A stretch of DNA of 64,000 nucleotides, taken from contig NC_007775.1 in the NCBI RefSeq assembly GCF_000013205.1, positions 2,377,001 through 2,441,000 on the forward strand, given 5' to 3'. Positions 1-59,609 of the stretch are shown here, in pieces. This stretch comes from Synechococcus sp. JA-3-3Ab (GTDB lineage: Bacteria; Cyanobacteriota; Cyanobacteriia; Thermostichales; Thermostichaceae). How positions within the stretch are numbered: position 1 is the first letter of the stretch; each line of letters opens with the position of its first letter. The notes beneath the pieces were generated by a model. That model saw nothing but the letters and a program-made list of their open reading frames with translations. It did not search any database and was not told the DNA's origin. The translations under genes were made by a program, and so were the position numbers.

Positions 1-315
1 TGAGGCCGTCAAGCCCTTGACACTCCCAGCGCCTGAAGGCAGGGGATTCTTACGCAGCCCAAAATGGACTGGCGAAGGCGCTGTCAAGACGCCCCTAGAT
101 AGTCTTTTGAGGCATAACCTCAAAGTTCTGCTTACTTCGGAGGACTTCAGTTCCTCCAGGTTAGTCATTGCCGCGCGGGTTTGGCACCGCAGTAGGTTGT
201 TTTCCTGGAGAAGCTCTAAAGAAGCAACTAAAGTGGCTCAAGGGCTTTTCCGCCCCGTCCTCAAGTACGGGGCTACCAAGCTATCCTTTTGTGTCAAAAG
301 GAATGTGTGGGCACT
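1..315 (+). repeat. tnpB-downstream conserved segment, copy 1 (candidate omega RNA / right end)
   Basis: This noncoding stretch matches, in opposite orientation, the segment 58150-58434 that follows the stop of a decayed tnpB. It has three stem candidates: TTTGAGG 106-112 with CCTCAAA 118-124; GGCG and CGCC near 77-93; and CCCCGT 253-258 with ACGGGG 267-272. Small ORFs across it in either copy are not conserved as protein. In IS200/IS605 and IS607 elements the region after tnpB commonly yields a guide (omega) RNA ending at the element's right end. I infer that role here. The matching tnpB would lie left of base 1. The right boundary is near 300, where similarity between the copies fades. Confidence 0.45.
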
Positions 316-351
316 GCCTGCCTGCTTGGGAAGACGACAGGACACAGCTCC

Positions 352-2085
352 TTACCGCTGGGTGAGGGCGGCCAGGAGCGATTGCACCTGCTGGACATGG
401 GCGCTGGCCGTGGAGCCCCTTTCTTGATATTGAGCCAGCTCTGCCTCCAACTGAGCCAGTTGTTCCGCTAACTCCGCCCAGCGATCTCGCTCAGGGTAGA
501 GGGTGGCCTGCAGATGGTTGAGGCGGCCCCAGGTTTCTGCCATCGCCTGGGTGCGGGCCCGCAGGGATCCCTCCTCTTGCTGCAACTGTTGCCACTGCTG
601 CTGCAATTCCTGCTGCTGGCGGGCCAGTTGCTCTTGTTGAAAGGGCAGAGAGGATTCCAGTTGGTGGACGAGGGTTTGCAGGCGGCTTTTTTCTTGGAGA
701 AGCTCCTGCTTCTGGCTGCCGATCTGCTCCAGGATCGGCCCGATATCGACCTGAACTGGGGCGGCAGCCTGATTTTGAAGCTGCCTAAGGCGGGCTTCCT
801 GGCGGGCCAGCTCCTCGTATTCCCGTTGCAGGTTTTTCTCCTGAGGCAGCAGGGCTTCCTCTAGGGCGCTGCAGGCAGACTGGGCGTAGTCGATATCCAG
901 TTCGATGTCGAACCGCTCCTCCGGAGAGGCGGTGGCCAGCCGCTCTTGCAGCTCCCGCAGGGTTTGCCGGTTTTGCTCCAGCTCGGCCCGCTGTTGGCTG
1001 ACTTGGGCTGCCCGCTGCTCGTAATCTCGGCGCAGTTGGCTCACCAAGGCCGCCAGCTCCTCGACCGAGATCGCAGACCCTGAGGCACCTGACCCGCCGT
1101 TGCTGCTGCCATCGACGATGAAGTCGTACTCCTGCACCAGGCGATAGGCTTTTTGGTACAAGCTCTCTTGGGATTGCAACTGCTGAAGGATCCTCTGCAG
1201 TTGCTCCTGATAGGCTCGCAGGGATCCCTGGCGGGCATGCCATTCGGCTTGGCTCTGCTCCAGGGATCGTTGGGATCCCCACCAGGCGGCGCAGCGCTCC
1301 CGCCAGGCATGGTAGTCTCGATCCAGCTCCTCCTGTTGAGCGTGGGCCTGCTGACGTTCTTGCTCCAGTTGGGCAATCTCTTGATTGAAGTGATCCTGCT
1401 GCTGCTGAACCTGGCTTTTTAAACTCTGGAGAAGAGCCAAGGGATTCGCGGAGAAATGTAAACTCTCCTGAACTTCTTGCAACAAAATCTGGAGCTGGAC
1501 CGCTTCTGCTTCCCCCAGCCGGCTGGAGCGGGCCTCTTGCAACTGAGCTTCCAGTTCCTGCCGTTGCCGGTTCAGGGCTTCTCGCTGTTCTCCGATCAGG
1601 CGCTGCTGCTCGGCCAGGTAGGCCTGCTGGGCTGCCAACTCCTCTTTGAGGCTGTCTAGAAGCTTGCGCTCTTCCTCCACGCCCTTGTATTGCTCGTACA
1701 GCCGCCGCACCTCCTCTTCTTGGGCTGCCAGCTCCATCTCGCGGCGGGTCAGCTCATGCGCCTGAAAGGTGAGGGACTTGCGCCAATTTTCAATCTCTTC
1801 CTCTTGGCTGCGGGCTTTGAGCTGAAGTTGGCTGAAGTTTTGTAGGTAGGTCACCACTTGGCGAGCGGCTTCGTTGATGCGGGTAATCTGACGGCTGCCT
1901 GTGATTTCTGCCAGCACCAAGGCCCCATCCTTGAAGCGCCCGGCCTCCTGGGCGATGCGGCCCTCTAGAGTAATCGATTCTTCGTTCACGGCCACCCAGG
2001 TGTTGTCCTGCTGCTGCTTGGCTAGCAATTGCAGCGACGATTTGGCAAACCCAATCGGCTTGGATAGCTCTGCCAGGTACAGCAC
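352..2085 (-). CDS. hmpF: HmpF-like pilus motility/taxis coiled-coil protein
   Basis: The 577-residue product has a short N-terminal domain starting MLYLAEL, followed from about residue 100 to the end by almost continuous Gln/Glu/Leu-rich coiled coil. That opening and the region around EEEIENWRKSLTFQAHEL resemble the cyanobacterial HmpF family, which is needed for type IV pilus motility in filamentous and unicellular species. The start is GTG at 2085, with AAGGAG seven bases upstream. It is transcribed divergently from trpC across a 412-base gap. No membrane segment or signal peptide is visible, so a cytoplasmic scaffold role is likely. The family call rests on the N-terminal domain; the coiled coil alone would not be diagnostic. 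Confidence 0.75.
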   Translation of the reverse strand: MLYLAELSKPIGFAKSSLQLLAKQQQDNTWVAVNEESITLEGRIAQEAGRFKDGALVLAEITGSRQITRINEAARQVVTYLQNFSQLQLKARSQEEEIENWRKSLTFQAHELTRREMELAAQEEEVRRLYEQYKGVEEERKLLDSLKEELAAQQAYLAEQQRLIGEQREALNRQRQELEAQLQEARSSRLGEAEAVQLQILLQEVQESLHFSANPLALLQSLKSQVQQQQDHFNQEIAQLEQERQQAHAQQEELDRDYHAWRERCAAWWGSQRSLEQSQAEWHARQGSLRAYQEQLQRILQQLQSQESLYQKAYRLVQEYDFIVDGSSNGGSGASGSAISVEELAALVSQLRRDYEQRAAQVSQQRAELEQNRQTLRELQERLATASPEERFDIELDIDYAQSACSALEEALLPQEKNLQREYEELARQEARLRQLQNQAAAPVQVDIGPILEQIGSQKQELLQEKSRLQTLVHQLESSLPFQQEQLARQQQELQQQWQQLQQEEGSLRARTQAMAETWGRLNHLQATLYPERDRWAELAEQLAQLEAELAQYQERGSTASAHVQQVQSLLAALTQR

Positions 2086-6405: not shown

Positions 6406-6570
6406 CAAGGCAGGGGGCCGGGGCTATCCCCCCAGGGGGGCTTGGTGAACGGCAGGCGGCAAGCTAACCTAAGAAGCTCGGGCAGACTGGGGAAAGCGCG
6501 GTGCAAATCCGCCACTGTGACGCAACTGTGATGGGATCCCTCCCTCAGCCAGAACACCCACCTGCCCTTG
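6406..6570 (+). promoter_or_regulatory. Cobalamin (AdoCbl) riboswitch
   Basis: Hallmarks of the class are visible. They are GGGGAAAGCGCGGTGCAAAT followed by the B12-box core GCCACTG (6511-6517), then CGCAACTGTGATGG, then a 3' arm CCTGCC (6561-6566) that pairs with GGCAGG (6409-6414) to close the aptamer. A hairpin CCTTG 6580-6584 with CAAGG 6592-6596 follows and overlaps the ribosome site of the next gene. This suggests translational control of cbiX by B12. The class is established, whereas the sequestering hairpin is my reading. Confidence 0.9.
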
Positions 6571-6609
6571 TCCTGTACCCCTTGCGATTCACAAGGAACG
6601 GAGTTTTTT

Positions 6610-25867: not shown

Positions 25868-26461
25868 ATGGCTAGGTATGTAAAACCGAGAGAAGCGGCG
25901 GATTATTTTGGGGTGTGTCTCCACACCTTGAGGCGATGGGAACAGAAAGGCTGGATCAAAGCAATACGTACTCCATCTGGTAGGGCAAGAAGGTATGACC
26001 TCGACAGCTACATCAGAACGCCAAAGAAAGCCAAACGAGTCGTTTTGTACGCCCGAGTCAGCAGTCGAGGGCAAAAGTCAGACTTGGAGAGACAGATTGC
26101 AAGACTGGTTAACCTCTATCCTGGAGCCGAAGTGGTCGGAGAGGTTGGCGGCGGCCTCGACTTCAAAAGACCAAAGTTCCTTGCCTTATTGGAACGAGTC
26201 CGTGCAGGAGATATCGGAACGATTGTGGTCGCTCACCGGGATCGACTCTGCCGGTTTGGATTTGAGTTCGTTGAGTGGTACTGCCGTCAATACGGGTGCG
26301 AAATCTTGGTTCTCGATGACGATCACCTTTCTCCCCAACAGGAACTGGTTGAGGATATCCTCACCATCCTGCACTGCTTCAGCAGTCGGCTCTACGGACT
26401 CAGAAAATACCGGGCTGCAATCGAGAAAGATACGGATTTATCCGGAGCCAGCGCTGGCTAA
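25868..26461 (+). CDS. tnpA: IS607 TnpA, serine recombinase with MerR-type HTH
   Basis: The 197 residues have an N-terminal MerR-like helix-turn-helix (about 5-55, REAADYFGVCLHTLRRWEQ) and then a small serine recombinase domain. The catalytic Ser is in YARVSSRGQKSDLERQ near residue 63. AHRDRLCRFGFE near 122 carries the conserved Arg residues. This domain order, HTH first, is the hallmark of IS607. It differs from copy B by a Phe/Leu change near residue 134. It overlaps tnpB by about 110 bases. Confidence 0.93.
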   Translation: MARYVKPREAADYFGVCLHTLRRWEQKGWIKAIRTPSGRARRYDLDSYIRTPKKAKRVVLYARVSSRGQKSDLERQIARLVNLYPGAEVVGEVGGGLDFKRPKFLALLERVRAGDIGTIVVAHRDRLCRFGFEFVEWYCRQYGCEILVLDDDHLSPQQELVEDILTILHCFSSRLYGLRKYRAAIEKDTDLSGASAG

Positions 26462-27596
26462 AGTTTGGAAGCGGTGGCAAGCGGCGTGCCGGTACTGCTA
26501 CAACCAAGCGATTGCCTATCAGCGTCAGCATGGTGCCCCAAAAACGGCCAGAAAGCTGCGGGACATCATCCTGCACTCCGACCTGCCCGGGTGGGTGAAG
26601 GACGCCCCCTGCCACATCAAGCAGAACGCGGTCGTCGAGGCGTGGTTGGCGTTCCGCCGAAGCAAAGACGCGAGGTTTCGCAGTGTGCGGGACAGGTCGC
26701 ATACGCTGCAATTCAACGCCGGCAACTTTCGCAATGGGACGTGGTATCCGAAACTCACCCGAGGTTTGGCGTTCCGTGCATCCGAGGAGATGCCCAGAGA
26801 GTGGGTACGTGGAACTGAGCTAATGCGGGTGAAAGACAGATGGTATGCCATCTTTCCTGAGCCCGTGAACGAGCAGTGTTCGTTAGCAAAGGGGGTGATC
26901 GCACTTGATCCTGGAGTAAGAAGCTTCCTTACAGGGTTTGATGGGGCGGGCTTTGTAGATATCGCCAAGGGAGACTTTGGCAGGATCGTTCGGCTGTGCT
27001 ACCACCTAGACGATCTGCAATCTAGGCTGAGCAAAGCGCCGAGACTCAAGCGTAGGCGAATGCGGCAAGCGGCGTTTCGTCTGCGGGAGAGAATCAGGAA
27101 CTTGGTGGGCGAGTGCCATCGCAAGGTAGCGGCGTTCCTGACGGATAACTACCGATTGATATTCCTCCCCACTTTCGAGTCAGCCAAGATGGTTGCCAAG
27201 GCAGGGAGGAAGTTTGGTAGCAAGACGGCAAGGGCGATGCTCACCTGGGCGCACTATCGGTTCAAGCAGTTCCTGAAGTTTCAAGCCAAGAAGAAAAACG
27301 TGGTTGTCGTGGAAGTATCGGAAGCGTACACCAGCAAAACCTGTACCAAGTGCGGGCACATCCACACCAAGTTGGGTGGCGCAAAGGTGTTTCGATGCCC
27401 AAAGTGCAACCATAGGCTACCACGAGATTGGCAAGGCGCTCTGGGTGTTATGCTCAGGGCTTTGCGGGATACCGCCTTTCTGTTTGGACTCCGTCCGAGT
27501 AGCGCGGTCGCGTCAGCGTCGCGTAGTGACAACGGAAACGGACAGAATGCTATCGCTTCACCGCTGAGCAGTAATGCTCAGCAGTGTTCAGCGTAA
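26349..27596 (+). CDS. tnpB: IS607-associated TnpB, RuvC-like RNA-guided nuclease family
   Basis: The TnpB body starts near KIRIYPEP and runs about 385 residues. RuvC positions are visible: Asp in VIALDPGVRS, Glu in VVVVEVSEAYTSKTC, and Asp in LPRDWQGALG. The zinc ribbon is CTKCGH...CPKC. TnpB nucleases use an RNA from the element's 3' end and help transposon retention. The start is uncertain: TTG 26349 is the nearest standard codon, but the same frame stays open back to 25995 through most of tnpA. Confidence 0.85.
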   Translation: MRISSPSCTASAVGSTDSENTGLQSRKIRIYPEPALAKVWKRWQAACRYCYNQAIAYQRQHGAPKTARKLRDIILHSDLPGWVKDAPCHIKQNAVVEAWLAFRRSKDARFRSVRDRSHTLQFNAGNFRNGTWYPKLTRGLAFRASEEMPREWVRGTELMRVKDRWYAIFPEPVNEQCSLAKGVIALDPGVRSFLTGFDGAGFVDIAKGDFGRIVRLCYHLDDLQSRLSKAPRLKRRRMRQAAFRLRERIRNLVGECHRKVAAFLTDNYRLIFLPTFESAKMVAKAGRKFGSKTARAMLTWAHYRFKQFLKFQAKKKNVVVVEVSEAYTSKTCTKCGHIHTKLGGAKVFRCPKCNHRLPRDWQGALGVMLRALRDTAFLFGLRPSSAVASASRSDNGNGQNAIASPLSSNAQQCSA

Positions 27597-56345: not shown

Positions 56346-57593
56346 TTACGCTGAACACTGCTGAGCATTACTGCTCAGCGGTGAAGCGATAGCATTCTGT
56401 CCGTTTCCGTTGTCACTACGCGATGCTGACGCGACCGCGCTACTCGGACGGAGTCCAAACAGAAAGGCGGTATCCCGCAAAGCTCTGAGCATAACACCCA
56501 GAGCGCCTTGCCAATCTCGTGGTAGCCTATGGTTGCACTTTGGGCATCTAAACACCTTTGCGCCACCCAACTTGGTGTGGATGTGCCCGCACTTGGTACA
56601 GGTTTTGCTGGTGTACGCTTCCGATACTTCCACGACAACCACGTTTTTCTTCTTGGCTTGAAACTTCAGGAGCTGCTTGAACCGGTAGTGCGCCCAGGTG
56701 AGCATCGCCCTTGCTGTCTTGCTACCAAACTTCCTCCCTGCCTTGGCAACCATCTTGGCTGACTCGAAAGTGGGGAGGAATATCAATCGGTAGTTATCCG
56801 TTAGGAACGCCGCTACCTTGCGATGGCACTCGTCCACCAAGTTCCTGATTCTCTCCCGCAGACGAAACGCCGCTTGCCGCATTCGCCTACGCTTGGGTCT
56901 CGGTGCTTTACTCAGCCTGGACTGCAGATCGTCTAGGTGGTAGCACAGCCGAACGATCCTGCCAAAGTCTCCCTTGGCAATATCTACAAAGCCCGCCCCA
57001 TCAAACCCTGTAAGGAAGCTTCTTACTCCAGGGTCAAGCGCAACAACCCCCTTTGCTAACGAACACTGCTCGTTCACGGGCTCAGGAAAGATGGCATACC
57101 ATCTGTCTTTCACCCGCATTAGCTCAGTTCCACGTGCCCATTCTCTGGGCATCTCCTCGGATGCGCGGAACGCCAAGCCTCGGGTGAGTTTCGGATACCA
57201 CGTCCCATTGCGAAAGTTGCCGGCGTTGAATTGCAGCGTATGCGACCTGTCTCGCACACTGCGAAACCTCGCGTCTTTGCTTCGGCGAAACGCCAACCAC
57301 GCCTCGACGACCGCGTTCTGCTTGATGTGGCAAGGGACGTCCTTCACCCACTCGGGTAGGTCGGAGCGCAGGATGATGTCCCGCAGCTTTCTGGCCGTTC
57401 TTGGAGCACCATGCTGACGCTGATAGGCAATCGCTTGGTTGTAGCAGTACCGGCACGCCGCTTGCCACCGCTTCCAAACTTTAGCCAGCGCTGGCTCCGG
57501 ATAAATCCGTATCTTTCTCGATTGCAGCCCGGTATTTTCTGAGTCCGTAGAGCCGACTGCTGAAGCAGTGCAGGATGGTGAGGATATCCTCAA
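56346..57593 (-). CDS. tnpB: IS607-associated TnpB, copy B
   Basis: Same layout as copy A, with RuvC residues in VVALDPGVRS, VVVVEVSEAYTSKTC and LPRDWQGALG and an intact zinc ribbon. Residue changes against copy A include PKTARK to PRTARK, HSDLPGW to RSDLPEW, VGECH to VDECH and KQFLKF to KQLLKF. The RuvC acids are unchanged, so both copies could be active. Start uncertain as in copy A (TTG 57593). Confidence 0.85.
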   Translation of the reverse strand: MRISSPSCTASAVGSTDSENTGLQSRKIRIYPEPALAKVWKRWQAACRYCYNQAIAYQRQHGAPRTARKLRDIILRSDLPEWVKDVPCHIKQNAVVEAWLAFRRSKDARFRSVRDRSHTLQFNAGNFRNGTWYPKLTRGLAFRASEEMPREWARGTELMRVKDRWYAIFPEPVNEQCSLAKGVVALDPGVRSFLTGFDGAGFVDIAKGDFGRIVRLCYHLDDLQSRLSKAPRPKRRRMRQAAFRLRERIRNLVDECHRKVAAFLTDNYRLIFLPTFESAKMVAKAGRKFGSKTARAMLTWAHYRFKQLLKFQAKKKNVVVVEVSEAYTSKTCTKCGHIHTKLGGAKVFRCPKCNHRLPRDWQGALGVMLRALRDTAFLFGLRPSSAVASASRSDNGNGQNAIASPLSSNAQQCSA

Positions 57594-58074
57594 CCAGTTC
57601 CTGTTGGGGAGAAAGGTGATCGTCATCGAGAACCAAGATTTCGCACCCGTATTGACGGCAGTACCACTCAACGAGCTCAAATCCAAACCGGCAGAGTCGA
57701 TCCCGGTGAGCGACCACAATTGTTCCGATATCTCCTGCACGGACTCGTTCCAATAAGGCAAGGAACTTTGGTCTTTTGAAGTCGAGACCGCCGCCAACCT
57801 CTCCGACCACTTCGGCTCCAGGATAGAGGTTAACCAGTCTTGCAATCTGTCTCTCCAAGTCTGACTTTTGCCCTCGACTGCTGACTCGGGCGTACAAAAC
57901 GACTCGTTTGGCTTTCTTTGGCGTTCTGATGTAGCTGTCGAGGTCATACCTTCTTGCCCTACCAGATGGAGTACGTATTGCTTTGATCCAGCCCTTCTGT
58001 TCCCATCGCCTCAAGGTGTGGAGACACACCCCAAAATAATCCGCCGCTTCTCTCGGTTTTACATACCTAGCCAT
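57481..58074 (-). CDS. tnpA: IS607 TnpA serine recombinase, copy B
   Basis: Matches copy A except for Phe/Leu near residue 134. The MerR-type HTH, catalytic YARVSSRGQ and HRDRLCRFG are intact. Transcribed towards the decreasing coordinates. Confidence 0.93.
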   Translation of the reverse strand: MARYVKPREAADYFGVCLHTLRRWEQKGWIKAIRTPSGRARRYDLDSYIRTPKKAKRVVLYARVSSRGQKSDLERQIARLVNLYPGAEVVGEVGGGLDFKRPKFLALLERVRAGDIGTIVVAHRDRLCRFGFELVEWYCRQYGCEILVLDDDHLSPQQELVEDILTILHCFSSRLYGLRKYRAAIEKDTDLSGASAG

Positions 58075-58149: not shown

Positions 58150-58434
58150 TTACACAAGAGGATAGCTTGGTAGCCCTGTACTTGAGTACGCGGCGGAAAA
58201 GCCCTTGAGCCACTTTAGTTGCTTCTTTGTTATTAGTACAGAGCTTCTCCAGGAAAACAACCTACTGCGGTGCAAAACCCGCGTGGCAATAACTAACCTG
58301 GCGGAACTTAAGTCCGAAGTAAGCAGAACTTTGAGGTTATGCCTCAAAGGACTGTCTAGAGGCGTCTTGACAGCGCCTTCGCGAGTCCACTTTGGGCTGC
58401 GTAAGAATCCCCTGGGTGGGAGTGTCAAAGCCAC
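58150..58434 (-). repeat. tnpB-downstream conserved segment, copy 2 (candidate omega RNA)
   Basis: The segment follows the decayed tnpB stop and repeats copy 1 (1-315) with small changes. The TTTGAGG-CATAA-CCTCAAA stem is fully kept. The later CCCCGT/ACGGGG stem has weakened to GTAC-TCAA-GTAC. The far end (58150) is the insertion point of IS607 copy B, so this element's right end is cut or just complete. Confidence 0.5.
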
Positions 58435-59609
58435 CCTTCCCCTTCACGGGAGATGTGTAAACTACCGGGCTCCGACCGCTCCCCAACCCCCGTATACGGG
58501 GGGAGGTAGGGGGGCTGGTTTACAGCAGCCCCCAATAATGCAATCACGTTGGCACCGTTAAAATCTGCATCCCCTTTCCAGCCACAGACCGAGTTCACAC
58601 AACGAAAATGCTTCCCTTCCCGTTGCCCAATCCACAGGCACGGGTGGCAGGTCTGCGAGCTGTAGGCAGGCGGCACCACCCCAACCTGGATCCCGGCCCG
58701 CAGCGCCTTGTACTGCACAAACTGCTTCAGTTGATAGAACGCCCAACTATTCGACCGCCGCCGCTCTATCTTAACTGCGCGGCTGTCGGTTGGTGCGCTC
58801 CCTAATGCCACTCAGGTCTTCCAGGGCAATAAAACTGTGGGTGGCCTGCGCCCTCGACACAATCGCTTTGGAGATGCAGGGATTGACCCAGGTTTGCAAG
58901 CGTCTCTCCTGACCAGACAGCCGTTGCAAGAGTTGGCGGCATCTGCGCCGACTAGATCTTGTGCCCTGACTGGCTTTGCGTTGAAGTGACGCCCGCAGCC
59001 GGGAGGAGTGGTCTCTGACCTGGTTCAACGGCTGTCCATTCCAGTTGTCCTCCTCTGAGGTATGGGCAATATCTCTCCTCCCCAAGTCCACCCCCATCGC
59101 CTTGGGGGTGTCTGGCTCGACGCCAATCTGGATGTAGTGAGAACCCTCTTTGCGTTTGACCAACGTGGCCGATTTGGGATTGGTGCCGGCCAGCATCCCT
59201 CGTTGATAGTTGCCAATGGCCAACTCAAAGCGTTCCCGACCCTCTACGGTGGTCAGCGACACCGTCCAGTCGTTCTCGCGGAAGGAAAAGATGCGGGCAT
59301 CGTAGGTCACGAAGCCTGCCTTGAAGGCCTTGACCGGACAGTTCTGTTGCCGGGCAACCTTACGCGACCCTGCCACCCGTCTGCATACCTGTTGTGCCAG
59401 GATAGCCCAAAGCAGGTACGAATCTCGCGCTAGCAGAGAGATTGGAGCTTGACGGCGTTGACTATCTTCTCTGGTGTGTTCTCATTCACCCAGTTCAAGG
59501 CCTGCACAAAGGCGTCCAGAGTCGCATCCAGCTTGACGGCTTGTGACTCCGATACCTAAGGACTCCGTCCCGCTAGCGCGAACAGTTTGATAGTCAAGAC
59601 TTGGGGCAT
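58425..59609 (-). pseudogene. Decayed tnpB with frameshifts and a stop
   Basis: Spliced across frames, it gives a TnpB: MPQVLTIKL at 59609, then LDAFVQALNWVNENTPEKIVNAVKLQSLC ending in an in-frame TAG. It resumes with RVAGSRKVARQQNCPVKAFKAGF, GVDLGRRDIA (first acid) and FIALEDLSG (second). It then shifts near 58771-58811 to YSSQTCHPC...CVNSVCGWKGDADFNGANVIALLG (zinc ribbon and third acid). A short insertion after MPQVLTIKL adds another break. Inactive as it stands. The C-terminal tail is built from the GTATAC module. Confidence 0.85.
58481..58517. repeat. GTATAC-centred palindrome module, copy 3
   Basis: ACCCCCGTATACGGGGGGAGG is followed by TAGGGGGGCTGG, in the 3' tail of the decayed tnpB. 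Confidence 0.8.

Follow-up and report, generated by a model that had tools for sequence, protein, structure and literature searches.

The window analysed here (64,000 bp, positions 2,377,001-2,441,000 of the single-contig, 2,932,766 bp genome of Synechococcus sp. JA-3-3Ab, labelled G000) contains two copies of a repeat that we interpret, in both identity and anatomy and with a probability of about 0.78, as miniature IS200/IS605 elements carrying the scaffold of a TnpB omega RNA. Element limits, an ACAC target, an internal deletion, a single intact element with tnpA and tnpB, a covarying fold, and varying flanks are directly observed. More tentatively, the guides of these miniature elements (MITEs) may be used in trans by a single TnpB.

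The two far-apart, inverted copies described in the original prediction are real, with 87% identity over query positions 17-294 (E = 1.6e-99) on opposite strands, and chance is excluded. The features of copy 1 and copy 2, in window coordinates, are as follows.

17-290, minus strand: copy 1, a 274-bp non-autonomous IS200/IS605-type element (MITE), with its left end at 290 and its right end GTGTCAA at 17
291-294 (read 294 to 291), minus strand: target tetranucleotide and candidate TAM of copy 1, ACAC, from ACAC statistics over copies and empty sites
222-290, minus strand: left end (LE) with a subterminal hairpin at 253-272, common to the autonomous element L173 and its deletion derivatives
140-221, minus strand: internal-deletion junction and tnpB coding remnant, from comparison with longer derivatives and with TnpB
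17-139, minus strand: omega-RNA-like scaffold, 120.9 bits (E 8.2e-33) with structure model R1, copy 1 being among the rows from which R1 was built
106-124, minus strand: helix 1 hairpin (TTTGAGG-CATAA-CCTCAAA), both sides being changed in 10 of 13 helix-1 pairs of alignment A3 (below)
77-95, minus strand: helix 2, whose loop UUGACA (82-87) is predicted from pairing counts to form a pseudoknot with UGUCAA (17-22)
50-76, minus strand: helix 3, from covariation
17-48, minus strand: right end, GAAT followed by the terminal hairpin and ending in GTGTCAA (TCAA cleavage-site-like), from comparison of copies
1-16 (read 16 to 1), minus strand: predicted guide of copy 1 within the variable flank, which differs between copies; a 20-nt guide would extend 4 nt beyond the window
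58156-58428, plus strand: copy 2, a 273-bp element of the same subfamily as copy 1, by sequence match
58152-58155, plus strand: target tetranucleotide ACAC of copy 2, from flank comparison
58315-58428, plus strand: omega-RNA-like scaffold of copy 2, 122.1 bits with R1, its terminal hairpin 9 nt shorter than that of copy 1
58429-58448, plus strand: guide predicted for copy 2, in the flank beyond its right end

The repeat had been proposed to be an RNA gene beside tnpB. The structured segment of the omega RNA type is indeed present, but the whole repeat is a miniature transposon with both of its ends and not an RNA gene alone; subterminal hairpins at both ends and the right-end TCAA are seen in the copies, as in IS200/IS605 elements. 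The element-strand reading frame within it is a remnant of the tnpB C-terminus, corresponding to residues ~441-464 of the intact 469-codon frame. The decayed tnpB whose stop was said to be directly followed by copy 2 does lie at that position (from about 59430 to 58425 on the minus strand, in two frames with stops, and with a Cys motif), but it meets copy 2 tail-to-tail, and it was rejected as the RNA partner because it is on the opposite strand and belongs to a different subfamily. Two other origins were discarded: the IS607 element at 56346-58074 as parent, as it has a serine recombinase and a different TnpB, and a target-duplicating (DDE) transposase as mobiliser, since the empty-site alignments contain no target duplication.

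The window also carries IS607-type TnpB genes at 56346-58074 (with the serine recombinase gene adjoining) and at 25995-27596, whose proteins are 97.9% identical. Elsewhere, at locus L010, the right end of a MITE is interrupted by an IS607-like end.

The sole intact tnpA and the sole intact tnpB of the family in the genome are found together in an autonomous IS605-type element of 1,806 bp (L173, genome coordinates 455,888-457,693), where the Y1 transposase gene lies just upstream of tnpB and is transcribed divergently from it, with the left end beyond tnpA; the 43 other TnpB matches and 15 other TnpA matches in G000 are all partial. On the element strand, the 17-137 piece of the repeat is at one site preceded by a 469-codon open frame that ends inside the piece. 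The parent TnpB, taken from an internal start (416 aa), matches NF040570 (guided_TnpB) with 168.3 bits (cut-off 100), and the parent TnpA is a Y1 (HUH) transposase matching NF033573 (IS200/IS605 transposase) with 130.1 bits (cut-off 55) and PF01797 with 114.6 bits. Genome-wide there are 19 Y1 gene matches, at least 13 of which have frames of 202-203 codons and lie outside L173, and these genes might be an alternative mobiliser of the MITE. MITEs are also present in the sister species G002, where we found three partial TnpB matches and a best TnpA match of 31% identity, in a 90-contig draft that leaves absence unproven.

Window positions 1-315 have at least 50 matches in the genome (40 of 65 first-look candidates were scored), and these are of three kinds: near-full copies of ~280 bp, right pieces (query 17-137), and left pieces (222-294). 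Many left and right pieces are paired at distances of a few hundred to ~1,150 bp and are the ends of longer elements. The RNA-like right end occurs in at least 43 genome copies (R1, E<=1e-10, from 150 scored out of 821 candidates); 32 of these have an identified left end, and for 11 there is none in the DNA examined. The two-ended copies comprise 14 of up to 300 bp, four of 300-400 bp, five of 600-750 bp, eight of 800-1,300 bp, and one full element, and copies 1 and 2 form a very uniform subfamily within the smallest size class. The 274-bp MITE is derived from the 1.8-kb autonomous element through internal deletion, and retains the left end together with the last ~120-200 bp carrying the TnpB omega RNA scaffold.

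Right flanks diverge directly after GTGTCAA, and left flanks diverge before ACAC, which precedes 24 of the 32 own-genome copies with a left end (eight deviate). We searched relatives for empty sites corresponding to 26 joined sites (11 of 15 in a first set, omitting L005, L012, L014, and L128, and then a further 15), and five were resolved. ACAC is present at three of these, the other two having ATAC and AGGC, and there is no duplication in the alignments. At the empty site of L019/L024, two relatives have ACAC in the same place with the right flank following immediately, and they differ from each other further left by an extra stretch of ~100 bp. The remaining sites are those of L068, an element of G002 (ACAC in the empty sites of both G000 and G001), of the G002 elements L081 (ACAC in G001) and L077 (AGGC), and a combination of the L027 left flank with the L124 right flank (ATAC in two relatives). 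ACAC is also constant while the first element bases vary, being AAAAGG in G000, ATTCGG in G002, and GTTAAA in one copy of G005. The view that ACAC belongs to the element and that left flanks lack a motif was rejected with the first of these empty sites (L019/L024). Because it is constant beside differing element starts and is present in empty sites, ACAC is target and not element sequence and, as judged from these alignments, is the target site of the family TnpA. According to PMC11870625 the TAM equals the TnpA target site in these elements, a rule that makes ACAC the expected TAM.

The flanks of L027 (G000:C1, about 2524136-2524807) and L124 (about 1116959-1118210) are swapped relative to G001 and G002: when one element's left flank is joined to the other's right flank, the two align end to end at a single site in relatives, and the reciprocal pair is less clean; the chromosome was probably rearranged via recombination between the copies. 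At L113 the left flank (G000:C1:369825-369899) places the insertion just behind what by appearance is the 3' part of a tRNA gene, 96-98% conserved in five relatives.

The 124-nt right end folds into a helix of the form GCAG(stem)CUGU, a GGCG/CGCC helix closed by the loop UUGACA, helix 3, and a terminal hairpin. The TTTGAGG/CCTCAAA stem had been noted as perfectly kept, and the 11 aligned subfamily copies all carry it in identical form (in copy 2 it lies within 58329-58349). Further copies do carry compensatory changes, which maintain this stem as helix 1. In A2, an alignment of 34 distinct sequences from the genus, 93.0% of cells pair and 14 of 36 pairs are changed on both sides, with 38 both-side-changed cells versus 14.4±2.9 in shuffles and no more than 19 when the structure was slid. 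In A3, with other cyanobacteria added (19 rows), 23 of 42 pairs are so changed, with 85 cells versus 31.9±4.6 shuffled and at most 30 slid. These shuffles take account of neither codons nor relatedness, and the region is partly coding. The own-genome alignment A1 (19 rows) is weaker: five of 36 pairs are changed on both sides, which 67 of 500 shuffles equalled, and there are 12 changed cells versus 6.0 in shuffles, although no shuffle reached either the cell count or the score. The predicted pseudoknot UUGACA/UGUCAA pairs in 91.2% of cells, and its three both-side-changed cells were reached by nine of 500 shuffles, again a weaker result. At L087 the GCAG/CUGU pairing is replaced by CGGC/GUCG.

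A1 omits identical rows and the incomplete L009, L014, and second L025. A2 omits L115-L118, L121-L123, L127, L131, L132, L084, L090, L064, L065, L069 (the same as L063), L075, L078, L082, and L016 (the last present in A1), and weaker R1 matches in G001-G005 stayed outside the alignments. The rows of A3 were picked for diversity, 11 from the genus and eight of 14 relative loci (omitting L180, L184, L186, and L188-L190). Since RNAalifold gave no more than 21 pairs on the gappy A2, pair counts use the structure from single-sequence folds. Single-sequence stability is significant in four of six sequences tested (z -2.73 to -4.65), but not in copy 1 (z -1.20, its stability matched by 24 of 200 shuffles) or L004b (z -1.62, 12 of 200). 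With Rfam 15 no family reaches its gathering score over the copies in the window or over the right ends at six loci, and window positions 1-400 yield two sub-threshold, chance-like matches only. The scaffold also spans the 3' end of the intact tnpB, whose frame stops inside the matched segment, and the terminal hairpin and TCAA double as the Y1 transposition end. By its conserved, covarying four-helix fold and predicted terminal pseudoknot, the scaffold is of the TnpB omega RNA type.

Four G002 copies (L077, L081, L130, L132) have a nearly identical insert of ~25 nt before the terminal hairpin. G005 (e.g. L075, L078, L082) contains a second TnpB-like family, with frames of ~402-412 codons and right ends GTGTCAA, that yields many weak matches to the RNA model. 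Among other RNAs, a cobalamin riboswitch is present at window positions 6437-6579 (33.2 bits against a gathering score of 31.5), and an NsiR9-like RNA occurs at L179 3771-3893 on a Cyanomargarita contig (84.7 bits, below the gathering score of 90).

TnpB relatives were found at 14 loci in other genomes, 13 of them cyanobacterial, with 28-65% identity in the best segment, and many share the same arrangement. Residues D196, E330/E331, and D378 of the family TnpB are invariant in 11 of 11 aligned homologues, with the glutamate off its usual position; in a weak profile match the protein shows GWN where Cas12f has EDL. As a single sequence the parent TnpB has no PDB match, and with a profile there are three weak ones. 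The family TnpB thus appears to be without the glutamate usual in RuvC-II, and may rely on one at a different position; PMC10711439 describes other TnpBs in which the RuvC-II glutamate is rearranged.

A flank varying from copy to copy had been expected after position ~300. The variable side is the other one: the guide side runs from window position 16 leftwards on the minus strand, and the side near 294 carries the target motif. The 43 flanks listed have no target in common. The predicted guide of copy 2 falls in the 3' end of the opposing decayed tnpB of the other family, and that of L020 (right flank G000:C1:135872-135944) lies beside or within a repeat that is dispersed through the genome in many near-identical copies. 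We found no sigma-70-like promoter in window positions 1-700 and no promoter-like site on the RNA strand at copy 2, where there is a single sigma-70-like site on the minus strand. Upstream of copy 2, its own strand carries nothing but the complement of the IS607 genes. As the RNA strand has no promoter-like site, expression would depend on read-through.

These elements suggest a possible mode of life, in which the Y1 TnpA would mobilise the MITE in trans via the MITE's terminal hairpins, or did so formerly, and the RNA of the MITE would be produced through read-through transcription. If transcribed, this RNA would carry the 16-20 nt after TGTCAA as guide. TnpB of the intact element could bind the MITE RNA and would cut ACAC plus guide, which form the empty site once the element has been excised; repair of the cut site from the sister copy would retain the MITE, so that a single TnpB might work with many guides. 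The family would then constitute a distributed guide-RNA system, in which one TnpB gene serves ~40 omega-RNA carriers, many of them MITEs, and each carrier remembers its own ACAC insertion site. The MITEs would owe their retention and spread to a nuclease encoded at another locus, those of G002 perhaps to a TnpB since lost. We regard this joint reading as possible but doubtful.

The strongest alternative, with a likelihood a little short of even, is that the MITE is purely a DNA parasite, in which the right ~200 bp were kept by an accident of deletion and the fold is a fossil with no role. This is compatible with the element anatomy described above and opposes only the use of guides in trans. 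Divergence within the MITE subfamily is low, and the copies are too alike to reveal selection on the fold within them; the absence of promoter-like sites on the RNA strand also fits a parasite, as do several copies that have lost part of the scaffold or an end (L009, L014, L016, L115, L117, L118, second L025, and L004b). However, the MITE subfamily and the derivatives of 327-338 bp, 616-668 bp, and ~1.2 kb mostly retain the whole scaffold, deletion of helix 1 is found once (L014), and five G002 MITEs (L062, L068, L073, L077, L081) also retain helix 1, observations that are suggestive only.

It is improbable that some copies are domesticated regulatory RNAs, either bound by TnpB without cutting, as in TldR, a TnpB-like protein that binds without cutting, or forming structures in the 3'UTR of an upstream gene. 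Copy 1 does lie just downstream (~60 bp) of a same-strand, mechanically called 577-aa ORF ending at 352, and its stem is terminator-like on the opposite strand (two found versus 1.0 expected in shuffles), but the invariance of D196, E330/E331, and D378 is consistent with a nuclease, and no common target emerges from the flanks. Strongly disfavoured, and the least probable, is that coding for the TnpB C-terminus together with Y1 hairpin constraints explains the conservation, without any RNA fold in the parent element either. In its favour, the last ~30 tnpB codons fall within the segment, a hairpin like that of the right end is standard in IS200/IS605 DNA ends, and the shuffles have the shortcomings given above. 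Against it, helices 1-3 are separate from the terminal hairpin and covary above both shuffled and slid controls, including the swap at L087.

If trans-use of the guides is correct, elements carrying nothing but a guide RNA could profit from the RNA-guided retention known from IS elements, in the way that MITEs profit from transposases. The known TnpB families would gain one that targets ACAC, and the host would offer ~40 natural guides for one enzyme. Omega RNAs and gene-less IS200/IS605 derivatives are already known kinds. Our literature search, whose coverage does not extend to several key papers, found no report of omega-RNA-bearing MITEs sharing one TnpB, and we make no claim of priority; 'ACAC' is absent from the main text of the publications searched for the string.

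The closest known counterpart is the omega RNA (reRNA) of the IS200/IS605 element ISDra2, which, according to PMC10097598, overlaps the tnpB 3' end and the right end, takes the flank after the right end as guide, and has a hairpin loop that forms a pseudoknot with the bases immediately preceding the guide. Scaffold position, guide position, and pseudoknot are alike in the family described here. In contrast to ISDra2, the target is ACAC rather than TTGAT, a covarying helix 1 lies upstream of the pseudoknot hairpin, the TnpB has no Cys zinc motif and has an apparently relocated RuvC-II glutamate, and most copies are on elements without an intact tnpB. In PMC9956272, 16 of 39 elements have TCAA as their right cleavage motif. 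The layout of L173, with divergent Y1 tnpA and tnpB, the right end TCAA, and hairpins near both ends, is that of autonomous IS605-type elements, whereas copies 1 and 2 lack both genes. PATEs are non-autonomous IS200/IS605 derivatives consisting of ends without genes and present in several copies. The MITEs here are likewise gene-less ends in several copies; their retention of the omega RNA scaffold may set them apart from PATEs. A further comparison is with ISSoc2, an IS607 element. PMC10969869 mentions ISSoc2-derived MITEs in thermophilic Synechococcus (Nelson 2012), and in PMC10711439 the name ISSoc2 appears in the legend of a figure that deals with IS200/605 and IS607 TnpBs. The ISSoc2 MITEs share with ours the same kind of host and a miniature form but differ in that the family here has a Y1 TnpA, and our family may overlap with the Nelson 2012 MITEs.
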